A stretch of 64,000 nucleotides of DNA from Glycomyces buryatensis (GTDB lineage: Bacteria > Actinomycetota > Actinomycetes > Mycobacteriales > Micromonosporaceae). Made by a program: the position numbers and the translations under genes. Shown here piece by piece: positions 42,524-47,174 of this stretch. Where the stretch lies: contig NZ_STGY01000067.1 of assembly GCF_004912275.1 (NCBI RefSeq), positions 183,401-247,400 on the forward strand, in the 5' to 3' direction. Below the pieces are notes generated by a model. That model searched no databases, was not told the origin of the DNA, and saw only the letters and a program-made list of their open reading frames with translations. Position 1 is the first letter of the stretch. Each line of letters begins with the position of its first letter.

Positions 42524-42741
42524 GCCCCAATCTTGCCCGACGAACGGGTCCGGGTTCGGCCGTGTCGCCGCGCACGGCGGGTGACCGATCGCTTTCGCTT
42601 CTGGCCCAACCACATTCCCTGGAGTTCCCTAGTGGAATCTACTAATTGCATAGACAGGTTGTCGCAACCGGCGCTTTTTGTCAATTTCCCGACTGACCGG
42701 CCAAACGGCGCGATGATGCACGTACTGTCGTTCACAAACCT
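42524..42741. other. intergenic region left of the IscB locus, candidate guide and element end
   Basis: No coding frame. Relatively AT-rich for this genome from about 42620 to 42740 and probably contains the promoter of the AfsR-like gene on the minus strand and the left boundary of the IscB element. The 16 or so bases immediately before the first omega-RNA hairpin (about 42726-42741) would be the guide if the scaffold starts there. Confidence 0.35.
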
Positions 42742-43090
42742 CGCCACCTTGAGGTGCGGTGTCCTCCGTAACGGGATCCCCTCCTGCAGGAGTGGGCTTT
42801 CAGTCGCACTGGTTGAGAGCCGCCGTTACCAGACCCAGCCAACAGATCATTTTGGAGGTGAACAAGTTGGCTACGTATCGCGTAGGACAGAAGACCGACC
42901 CTGGGATGCTTCCTCAGCTCCAGGCTCTCGAATTCACGGCAGCAGACAATCCCCGGATCGGGAACGAAACGGGCCGTGGAGGCCTTCAGGCACCCGGCGG
43001 GGTACATGGTCGAGGGGAGATTCGTGATCCTTCACCTGGGATCGCGGGCGTCACCCGCGAAAGCGGAGCCTGTGGTCGTGAGACCGCGCC
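42742..43090 (+). ncRNA. candidate omega-RNA (HEARO-like) of IscB
   Basis: About 350 nt directly upstream of IscB, without a credible protein. It folds into many helices: CACC-TTGA-GGTG (42745-42756); GTAACGG (42768-42774) with CCGTTAC (42823-42829), enclosing CTCC-TGCA-GGAG (42781-42792); GATCC (43026-43030) with GGATC (43039-43043); CGCGGG (43043-43048) with CCCGCG (43054-43059); GGTC-GTGA-GACC with a GNRA loop (43074-43085), which ends 9 nt before IscB. Position, length and fold match the 5'-located omega-RNAs of IscB proteins. The precise ends are inferred. Confidence 0.75.
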
Positions 43091-43094
43091 ATGC

Positions 43095-44399
43095 GTGTTC
43101 GTCCTCGCGAAGGACGGAACACAATTGGACCCGTGCCATCCGGCACGGGCCCGGAAGCTACTCAATAAGGGCCGGGCGGTGGTGGCACGGCATACGCCAT
43201 TCGTGATCCGGTTGCGCGACCGCAGCGCCGCTGAATCCGAGGTACAGGGCGTGGAAGTGGGAATCGACCCCGGGAGTAAGCACACCGGAATCGCGGTGTT
43301 CGCTGATGTCGGTGGTGGCCGACGGCAAGGCTTGTACGCCCTCCAGGTCAACCATCGCGGCGGGAAGATCCGCGACAAACTGACCGCCCGCGCCGCGTAT
43401 CGGCGGGCCAGGCGGGGCCGGAACCTGCGCTACCGTACGCCCCGGTTCGCCAACCGCACCAGGCCGCAAGGCCGACTCGCCCCGAGCCTGCAACACCGGG
43501 TCGACACCACCATGTCGCAGATCGCGCGCCTGCGACGGTGGGCGCCGGTCACCGCCGTGCATGTCGAACGCGTCAGCTTCGACACGCACGCCATGTCGGC
43601 GGGCCAGTCCTTGACTGGCGTGGAGTACCAGCAAGGCACTCTCGCCGGATACGAAGTCCGGCAGTACCTCCTTGAGAAATGGGGGCGGGCCTGCGCCTAC
43701 TGCGGCGCGGGCGACACGCCGTTGCAGGTCGAACATATTCGCCCCAAGGCGCGGGGCGGCTCCCACCGGATCTCGAACCTCACCCTCGCTTGCGGGGCTT
43801 GCAACCAGGCGAAGAACACCACACCTGTGGAAATGTTCCTGGCCGACCGCTCAACGCTTCTGGCGCGCATCCTCAAGCAGGCGAAGGCGCCTTTGAGCGA
43901 TGCCGCGGCGATGAACGCCACCCGCAACGCCCTGTGGGGTTCCCTGACAGGAACGGGCCTGCCCGCCCATTCGAGTTCGGGTGGGCGGACCAAGTACAAC
44001 CGGTTCATCACCGGCGCACCCAAATCGCACACTCTGGACGGGCTCCATGTCGGGGCGCTCAGGGCGGTCCCCTCCTGGCCGGGCCAGGTCCTGGTGGTCA
44101 AGGCGACTGGGCGTGGAACATACTGCCGGACCCGCACCGACGCTTTCGGATTTCCGCGCTTGAAGATGCCCCGCACCAAACAGATCCACGGCTTCCAGAC
44201 CGGGGACCTCGTACGCGCGGTAGTGCTCAGAGGGAAGTACCAAGGCACGCACACCGGCCGGGTCGCGGTGCGTTCCAGCGGCAGCCACACCGTGCAAACC
44301 CCTCAGGGGCCAGTCAAAACCTCATGGAAGAACCTCCACCTGCTGCAACGTGGGGATGGATACACCTATCACCGGCAGGAGGAAACATGCCGACCCTGA
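43095..44399 (+). CDS. iscB: IscB RNA-guided DNA endonuclease
   Basis: 434 residues from the GTG at 43095, the normal IscB size; the longer open frame upstream is omega-RNA. N-terminal PLMP-type domain is VFVLAKDGTQLDPCHPARAR, with the PLMP itself degenerate. RuvC-I is VGIDPGSKHTG (D58), bridge helix RRARRGRNLRYRTPRF, RuvC-II VHVERVSFD (E158), HNH with zinc Cys C200/C203 and C233/C236 and VEHIRP (H214), N228, RuvC-III SHTLDGLHVG (H312, D315). All catalytic residues are intact. C-terminal TAM-interaction region follows. No TnpA is adjacent, so the element is non-autonomous. IscB is the ancestor-type relative of Cas9. Confidence 0.95.
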   Translation: MFVLAKDGTQLDPCHPARARKLLNKGRAVVARHTPFVIRLRDRSAAESEVQGVEVGIDPGSKHTGIAVFADVGGGRRQGLYALQVNHRGGKIRDKLTARAAYRRARRGRNLRYRTPRFANRTRPQGRLAPSLQHRVDTTMSQIARLRRWAPVTAVHVERVSFDTHAMSAGQSLTGVEYQQGTLAGYEVRQYLLEKWGRACAYCGAGDTPLQVEHIRPKARGGSHRISNLTLACGACNQAKNTTPVEMFLADRSTLLARILKQAKAPLSDAAAMNATRNALWGSLTGTGLPAHSSSGGRTKYNRFITGAPKSHTLDGLHVGALRAVPSWPGQVLVVKATGRGTYCRTRTDAFGFPRLKMPRTKQIHGFQTGDLVRAVVLRGKYQGTHTGRVAVRSSGSHTVQTPQGPVKTSWKNLHLLQRGDGYTYHRQEETCRP

Positions 44400-44412
44400 T
44401 ATAGGTTCTCGC

Positions 44413-44453
44413 GAATCGACTGTCCTTGACCCGCTCCTCCGGAGCTTCGATTC
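44413..44453. repeat. imperfect hairpin after IscB, candidate right end
   Basis: GAATCGA (44413-44419) pairs with TCGATTC (44447-44453) and encloses GCTCC-TCC-GGAGC (44433-44445). A further hairpin GACC-TTCC-GGTC lies at about 44460-44474. Subterminal hairpins are typical of IS200/IS605-type ends, which would place the right boundary between here and about 44494. It could instead be a terminator; no T-run follows. Confidence 0.5.
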
Positions 44454-44494
44454 CTCTCCGACCTTCCGGTCAGTGCATTCACGAAGGAAGTCAG

Positions 44495-45058
44495 ATGACG
44501 ATCCGACTTGATTTCCACCACGGTTCCCACTCCCCCACCCCTGTCTCCCCCGCATCGGAAGGAGCACCACCGATGAGCGCCGGACCCATTGGCGCGCACA
44601 TCGCCGGCTACTGTGCCGAATTCAGGCTCGAAACCGGTGACGGGTCGCAGATCCTTCTCGCAAACGACCCGGACGGCGTGGCGGCGGCCGTCGCGACCAT
44701 AATCGCGGCCGACCTGGTGCAGGTCTCGACCGCGCTGGTGCGGGACCGTCCCGGCTACCTGCCGGGCGGACGGCCCGACCACGGCCTGAAGATCGTGGCC
44801 GATAGGGATGCCGAAGTGGGCGCGCTCGCCTATTTCGGACCGGGCGGCGAGGACTACGGTCCGGGCGCCTGGGTGACCTATTCGGGCGAGAATAAGCAAT
44901 CCGAAGTCCGCCTATTCCGCGATATGGACGGGGCGAGCACGTTCCCTTCCGATTCTCATATTCCGTTGAGCACGCTGGCCCGCGCGGTCGAGGACTTCCG
45001 TGCCACCGGCGGACTGCGTCCGACGATCGTGTCGTGGCGGCCCAGCACTGTTTGGTGA
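44495..45058 (+). CDS. Imm1-like immunity protein, orphan
   Basis: 187 residues if started at the ATG 44495 (GAAGGAAG upstream); a second in-frame ATG at 44573 also has a good site (GGAAGGAG) and removes 26 residues. The C-terminal half with GALAYFGPGGEDYGPGAWVTYSG, LFRDMDGASTFP, IPLSTLARAVEDF and RPTIVSWR is the pattern of the Imm1 family, whose members neutralise polymorphic toxins such as deaminases and nucleases. No toxin or secretion gene is next to it. The IscB element sits directly upstream and may have separated it from its partner or promoter. Confidence 0.7.
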   Translation: MTIRLDFHHGSHSPTPVSPASEGAPPMSAGPIGAHIAGYCAEFRLETGDGSQILLANDPDGVAAAVATIIAADLVQVSTALVRDRPGYLPGGRPDHGLKIVADRDAEVGALAYFGPGGEDYGPGAWVTYSGENKQSEVRLFRDMDGASTFPSDSHIPLSTLARAVEDFRATGGLRPTIVSWRPSTVW

Positions 45059-46754: not shown

Positions 46755-47174
46755 TCAGTCCGCCTCCCCGGCCGGGACCACCCACTCCATCGGCTGCCCG
46801 GTCACGTCCGCGATCCGGTCGAAGTCCTTGTCGTAGTGCAACACGGTGACCCGGTGCCGTTCAGCTGTTGCCGCCACGAGTAGGTCGGGGATCTTGACGC
46901 TGCGGTGCAACGAGCGTTCGACCAGCTCGACTTGCACCTCAATCGCCCTATCCCAGACATCATCGGGCGTTGTCAACCGTTCGAACGTATTGAACGATCG
47001 GCGAAGAAATTCGAGATCCTGCTGGTTCCTAGCGCTGACCTGCATCTCCAGGATGCCGATCCCACACAGAGCCAGCTTTCCTTGCTGCGACAGAGGACCG
47101 AGCCGCGCAGCGACTACGGGCTTGGCCTGGCGTGCAAATACACTGTTGTCTACCAGGTAACCGGCTACCGCCAC
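46755..47174 (-). CDS. vapC: VapC-type PIN-domain ribonuclease toxin
   Basis: 139 residues. PIN fold with acidic residues in YLVDNSVF (Asp 9), GILEMQ (Glu 43), IPDLLVAATAE (Asp near 96) and LHYDKDFDRIA (Asp near 114-117), the usual Mg-binding quartet. Cleaves tRNA or rRNA in known systems. Its start lies inside the antitoxin gene (10-nt overlap), the standard arrangement. Confidence 0.93.
   Translation of the reverse strand: MAVAGYLVDNSVFARQAKPVVAARLGPLSQQGKLALCGIGILEMQVSARNQQDLEFLRRSFNTFERLTTPDDVWDRAIEVQVELVERSLHRSVKIPDLLVAATAERHRVTVLHYDKDFDRIADVTGQPMEWVVPAGEAD

Follow-up and report, generated by a model that had tools for sequence, protein, structure and literature searches.

Within the window, as we call the whole 64,000-nt stretch of Glycomyces buryatensis DNA that was analysed, an iscB gene is preceded by a putative omega-RNA and followed by an Imm1-like host gene (Table 1). 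The iscB ORF runs from a GTG at 43095 to a TGA at 44399 with no internal stops, and its product scores 413.8 bits against the NCBIfam equivalog guided_IscB (NF040563; cut-off, 175). Pfam places both RRXRR and HNH domains in the protein (HNH, 46.9 bits; cut-off, 21.4). Across an alignment of 37 sequences, no variation is seen at H214, N228, N237, C200, C203, and C233, and C236 reaches at least 90% conservation; all of these, which we take to be HNH and zinc residues, are present in the window IscB. The RuvC residues D58, E158, H312, and D315 (roles assigned after PMC9640706) are likewise invariant in the alignment and kept in the window, so that the intact nuclease claimed in a preliminary description of this DNA, with RuvC and HNH residues and zinc cysteines in place, is borne out. 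The same description had called the PLMP motif degenerate: Position 10, a P in at least 90% of the alignment, is indeed Q in the window (QLDP), but the departure is only mild, with L11 and P13 kept.

Table 1. Coordinates of the IscB element, its parts, and its surroundings in the window.
Feature	Position	Strand	Basis
Whole IscB (OMEGA) element, 1727 bp	42768–44494	+	Joined-flank query unbroken across the junction in 18/20 same-genus loci
Predicted 16-nt guide AGGTGCGGTGTCCTCC, host leader left of the element	42752–42767	+	Empty-site junction 42767/42768
Omega-RNA scaffold, HEARO-like	42768–43056	+	Rfam match 42768–43025, GTCAC block near 43056, covariation; 3′ end inferred
iscB, GTG start, 434 aa	43095–44399	+	NF040563; Pfam RRXRR and HNH; dN/dS; AlphaFold model
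Small right-end hairpin GACC-TTCC-GGTC	44460–44471	+	Read from the sequence; relatives have a longer hairpin thereabouts
Shine-Dalgarno–like GAAGGAAG within the element's right end and immediately preceding the host ATG	44483–44490	+	Sequence; putative role
Predicted TAM, ATGA	44495–44498	+	Empty-site boundary
Imm1-like host gene, 187 aa, severed from its leader by the element	44495–45058	+	Pfam Imm1; coding-like variation

The protein appears to have been maintained by selection. Compared with eight actinobacterial relatives, IscB yields dN/dS values of 0.22 to 0.28 (Nei-Gojobori), averages over long lineages with dS >1 that a recent loss of function could escape; on this evidence the protein is intact and evolves under purifying selection. 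By sequence, TbaIscB and HfmIscB are its closest relatives with a solved structure, and the ten best PDB matches of the AlphaFold model of the window protein (mean pLDDT, 81.3) are all IscB or IsrB, with TM-scores of about 0.44 to 0.55 by query length. No other full-length IscB copy was found in its own genome. A homologue at L102:5001-6278 carries a stop codon inside the matched frame. As to the start, the GTG put forward in the preliminary description coincides with the beginning of RRXRR, even when the longer upstream frame serves as the query, and one annotated relative (L166:1501) uses the same aligned GTG; the annotated start lies 2 or 3 codons upstream of it in 12 of the 13 remaining plasmid copies and much further upstream in L171.

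Upstream of this GTG, the Rfam family HEARO (RF02033) matches over its full model (1–211; E = 3.1e-11), the only such match in the genome. The covariance search that had been proposed for this region thus returns a full-length hit, but one whose score of 60.3 bits lies below the gathering score of 83, which we count against our reading of the locus; we call the RNA HEARO-like for this reason, and an Rfam scan of the window at the gathering threshold gave no match. Weak matches to CC3552 and D12-methyl, far under cut-off, were taken as chance. Folding energy is also unremarkable (z = −0.63; 55 of 200 shuffles fold as well); it too counts against our reading, and we dropped it as proof of RNA structure.

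The strong structure claimed for the upstream RNA, unsupported by folding energy, does find support in covariation among homologues, which is strong over 22 sequences; the preliminary description had named a missing HEARO-like hit and missing covariation as refuting it, and neither outcome is observed. Upon scoring a 59-pair consensus, we found 95.1% of cells paired versus 72.2% in shuffles, both-side changes at 44 of the 59 pairs, and a covariation score of 0.634 versus 0.204 in shuffles, with 0 of 500 shuffles reaching any one of five measures and slid controls at most 46.2% paired; these figures are to be read knowing that the consensus derives from the same alignment, which favours pairing, and that related sequences can exceed shuffles. 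The rows were sampled from a relatives set of 83 elements (80 from genome contigs, two of the genus, and the window), of which 81 had enough upstream sequence and 59 remained after redundancy removal; the 22 chosen are actinobacterial and proteobacterial and were taken as aligning well, while cyanobacterial and other distant forms, L035 (left end beyond the stretch), L041, and L064 were left out, and the omission of distant forms favours clean pairing. The window RNA keeps 54 of the 59 pairs. A first stem, GUAACGG/CCGUUAC in the window and GUCAACG/CGUUGAC in many relatives, was missed by RNAalifold because the 5′ ends are misaligned in the 22-row alignment; in a script count, 17 rows pair 7/7 and 3 pair 6/7, and the outliers L052 and L087 score 2 and 3, as the counting motif had picked up a CCAG lying earlier. 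The last conserved block, GTCAC, lies near 43056 and is preceded in the window by extra sequence able to form a hairpin; this makes it the probable end of the scaffold, some 39 nt upstream of the GTG instead of the 9 nt first proposed. The RNA boundaries of the preliminary description were thus tens of nucleotides off, and the folding strength from which they had been drawn does no better than chance.

Could this stretch be protein instead? The frame from 42759 is open and could be translated as a 546-aa protein, an idea that we regard as most improbable given the covariation and the HEARO match across the upstream stretch, a Pfam domain that begins only at the GTG, and the annotation of L166 from the same aligned GTG. 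By its pattern of change, the stretch behaves as RNA, as the preliminary description had held for the longer frame.

The ends of the element can be taken from genomes of the same genus, in which the two element flanks adjoin each other. Of 20 sister loci, 18 aligned with a joined-flank query in a single piece that spans the junction, and 2 in several pieces; a 21st genome (G018), with a weak match to each flank only, was excluded from the count. These empty sites define the element, whose left end coincides with the start of the HEARO match, and reveal insertion beside a short fixed motif (RTGA on the right) without target duplication. We accordingly find host DNA at the left edge, the predicted guide, and a candidate TAM at the right edge. 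The 5′ guide of the 16-nt class anticipated in the preliminary description is placed by the empty-site junction at 42752–42767; the sister loci L121 and L128 are identical to the window over the 18 nt before the junction (18/18), and 16 nt suffice for OgeuIscB according to PMC9640706. At the junction, ATGG stands in each of the 18 readable sister empty sites, and ATGA at the occupied site in the window. That ATGA is seen only at the occupied site agrees with DtIsrB (Desulfovirgula), which cuts at ATGA but not at ATGG (PMC9581776), although this is a single event that a later change could also account for. The present guide may hence find no cuttable site in the ATGG sister sites, a point that we count against our reading.

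Searching the genome with the guide AGGTGCGGTGTCCTCC, we found a single exact match, the element's own left flank, which is followed by GTAA and not ATGA; matches with up to three mismatches number 84 versus 89 for the reversed control, so no excess is seen. With a guide that equals host leader and has one exact genomic match, one might picture IscB and its omega-RNA as a co-opted regulator that binds the leader and controls the Imm1-like gene without cutting, but a sole match lacking ATGA and an intact set of catalytic residues render this very unlikely. When 300 genomes sampled from the family were searched with the element DNA, 62 gave a match, often a short one, and the best match outside its own genome has 66% identity; we thus see no recent copy among these 300 genomes.

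The ATG of the ATGA is the start codon of the host gene, directly before which the element has inserted. Pfam Imm1 matches the gene product with 43.8 bits (profile 40–125 of 125). The frame from the junction ATG is open in 19 of 19 sequences read, and third codon positions counted from it vary most (0.414 versus 0.264 and 0.224); for these reasons, ATG 44495 is probably the true start, while a second ATG of the same frame (44573), which all 19 sequences share and which follows GGAAGGAG, could also serve. As for subterminal hairpins, the left-end stem belongs to the RNA and the right-end hairpin has only 4 pairs. To the left, the leader 42624–42767 is common to the sister genomes and contains the strongly conserved blocks TGGAATCT, ACGTACTGTCGTT, and TGAGGTGCGGTGTCC. 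We consider this stretch to be probably the promoter and leader of the Imm1-like gene. Two observations count against our reading here: A scan of 42560–43100 for sigma-70-type promoters, one that covers actinobacterial promoters poorly, found none, and the window's guide has no clear Shine-Dalgarno motif. Further downstream, at 46755–47174 on the minus strand, lies an ORF that by eye resembles a PIN-domain (VapC-type) protein.

Overall, we think it likely that the locus holds a transposase-less 1727-bp IscB (OMEGA) element before an Imm1-like start codon, working as follows. The host promoter upstream would give a single transcript that starts in host DNA, its last 16 nt before the element acting as guide and its scaffold binding IscB. 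The complex would then cut a chromosome copy that had lost the element, at a guide match followed by ATGA, and repair of the cut would copy the element back in. Omega-RNA–guided cutting of the empty site is established as favouring such re-copying. With a guide located beyond its own 5′ end, the element depends on a promoter of the host, and landing at a start codon supplies one; the right-end Shine-Dalgarno–like sequence (GAAGGAAG here) would keep the host gene translated, as would, in relatives, an IscB stop overlapping the host start. What can be read directly from the sequence comprises the ends, the guide position, ATGA on the target-adjacent side, the conserved RNA fold, the intact protein, and the start-codon site. 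The interpretation given in the preliminary description (an IscB starting at the GTG, an upstream omega-RNA, and a 5′ guide) is supported and its observation partly confirmed; the ends of the element, its exact guide, the motif ATGA, and the location at a start codon go beyond it.

The element carries no transposase, and this bears on how much of the mechanism still runs. Y1 transposase (PF01797) has no match in its own genome, which we count against our reading and because of which the element contains none, is not classed as an autonomous IS200/IS605 member, and is of doubtful mobility in this genome; the excision and retention role may be idle. The same transposase is present in 7 of 22 genus genomes, including the one with two IscB copies. 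Few HEARO nucleases in general adjoin TnpA (PMC9755519). The element might instead be a stranded, decaying remnant, immobile without Y1 transposase, whose protein and RNA have not yet eroded. The missing PF01797, the single full-length copy, the change of P10 to Q in the PLMP motif, and the loss of 5 of 59 consensus RNA pairs would fit such a history, against which stand the stop-free ORF with its catalytic residues and the low dN/dS, the latter with the limits of a long-lineage average already given; we regard it as possible but less probable than a working element.

Many relatives appear to insert right before host start codons, as the window element does. The genus holds two further IscB copies, L004 and L025, both in one genome. 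L004 (G012:C160) is a 62%-identical IscB element in a sister species, its right end carrying GGGAGG, and has an xseA-like gene on one side and an xseB-like gene on the other (both named by eye), the ATG of the latter following directly. Its left junction is not clean, some leader nucleotides seen in the sisters being absent, and we count this against our reading. Downstream of L025, the adjoining gene has matches in 22 of 22 genomes, the one that carries L025 among them, and these begin at its first codon.

In the relatives set, a right-end HMM matched 60 of 81 regions, several weakly; in a further step, probes read by hand, or a motif plus the first RTGA/TTGA after it, gave the right ends of 62 of 83 elements and left 21 unassigned. 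These ends read ATGA in 52 elements, GTGA in 9, and TTGA in 1, a tally that is partly built in because the ends were partly defined by RTGA/TTGA and that gives no independent TAM estimate. Closed ORFs starting at the junction reach at least 60 aa in 47 of 61 elements versus 22.8 expected (maximum 39) and at least 100 aa in 44 of 61 versus 15.4 expected, the expectation coming from 20,000 draws based on 7052 RTGA sites. As a control by Pfam, we took 45 junction ORFs that reach 60 aa (L004 and L025 are, owing to orientation, outside these 45) and compared the first 30 with 30 of 59 ORFs that reach the same length at random RTGA sites, calling the most N-terminal domain over cut-off complete if its profile start was at most 10. 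The first domain was complete in 19 of 30 junction ORFs versus 7 of 30 random ones, plus one unclear (L039), and incomplete in 3 versus 7, the window's Imm1-like gene being one of the 3; no family passed cut-off in 8 versus 15. Junction genes with complete first domains include, by Pfam, serine dehydratase, homoserine dehydrogenase, undecaprenyl diphosphate synthase, and pyrroline-5-carboxylate reductase; further junction genes are a ParB and, by eye, IspE and XseB.

Annotated plasmids point the same way. Fourteen loci were taken by hand from 40 of 80 matching records, and L166 has no readable end, leaving 13. An annotated CDS start coincides with the element end in 8 of these 13 copies (7 of 12 independent sites, since L169 and L175 share one), compared with 10 of 501 RTGA sites in the background. 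On a Deinococcus plasmid (L179:1492-3771), for example, an IscB element separates a ParA-family gene from a ParB-family gene, and its end coincides with the annotated start of the ParB-family gene. The other five ends (L167, L170, L171, L174, and L178) lie off annotated starts and are counted against our reading.

Among the 75 elements with a left end, 25 predicted guides contain a strong Shine-Dalgarno–like motif versus 4.2 expected (maximum 16 in draws). At the 62 right ends, the IscB stop overlaps the start as ATGA in 17 and as TGATG in 10, a Shine-Dalgarno motif alone is found in 13 (the window included), and 22 show neither; these 22, of which 12 are Vreelandella, are counted against our reading. 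In Vreelandella rituensis, IscB copies of one genome make up 13 of the 80 loci (L039, L040, L042, L043, L045, L049, L056, L075, L078, L080, L084, L092, and L105); where the right end can be read, Shine-Dalgarno motif and stop-start overlap are both absent, and the copies are possibly a recently active family.

Insertions within genes would be selected against, so the association with start codons could be due only to the purging of all others and not to any feature of the elements, which the 22 of 62 right ends with neither signal would suit. Such purging is harder to square with the plasmid ends, 8 of 13 of which lie at starts when a background confined to starts and intergenic RTGA sites, coding interiors excluded, yields 10 of 104, nor does it account for the 40 of 62 right ends with a Shine-Dalgarno motif or an overlap; we consider purging as the sole cause rather unlikely. 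In the account that we put at about even chances, this clade's IscB elements would be start-codon elements: RTGA would be a start codon plus A, the guide would be host leader, often with its Shine-Dalgarno motif, the host promoter would be borrowed, and the right end would restore a Shine-Dalgarno motif or a stop-start overlap, thereby keeping the host gene, often a core gene, translated. If general, this habit would account for the expression of an RNA-guided element with its guide beyond its own 5′ end, for its being tolerated before core genes, and for RTGA as the target motif.

With OgeuIscB, TbaIscB, and HfmIscB (OMEGA systems of the IS200/IS605 type), the window element has in common a PLMP motif in mildly degenerate form, the RuvC, bridge helix, and HNH regions, the predicted 5′ guide, and the upstream HEARO-type RNA; it differs in being actinobacterial, in Q10 of the PLMP motif, in an RNA under the Rfam gathering score, and in having no transposase, with no Y1 transposase in its genome. 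HEARO elements are reported in front of ATGA or GTGA, and AwaIscB has an ATGA TAM. Compared with RF02033 itself, the window RNA matches the full length but scores less and has the extra hairpin-capable sequence before GTCAC. IscB nucleases are relatives of Cas9 carried on mobile DNA. Homology to Cas9d (type II-D) extends over HNH and RuvC, but the window protein is much shorter and stays under the cut-offs of the Cas9 models (NF049971, 30.5 versus 375 bits; a second model, 14.8 versus 100). IsrB shares the layout and a TAM ending in TGA (DtIsrB, NTGA; PMC9581776) but lacks the HNH domain that the window protein has. With the natural guide, the ends, and the target motif read from empty sites, the element is ready for assay. 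The literature on IscB and HEARO covered by our search, outside which key papers lie, yielded no link to start codons, Shine-Dalgarno motifs, or coupling to a downstream gene. The element itself is one more IscB, of a kind already known, and novelty may lie in the association with start codons, in the host Shine-Dalgarno motif inside the guide, and in the Shine-Dalgarno motif or stop-start overlap at the right end.
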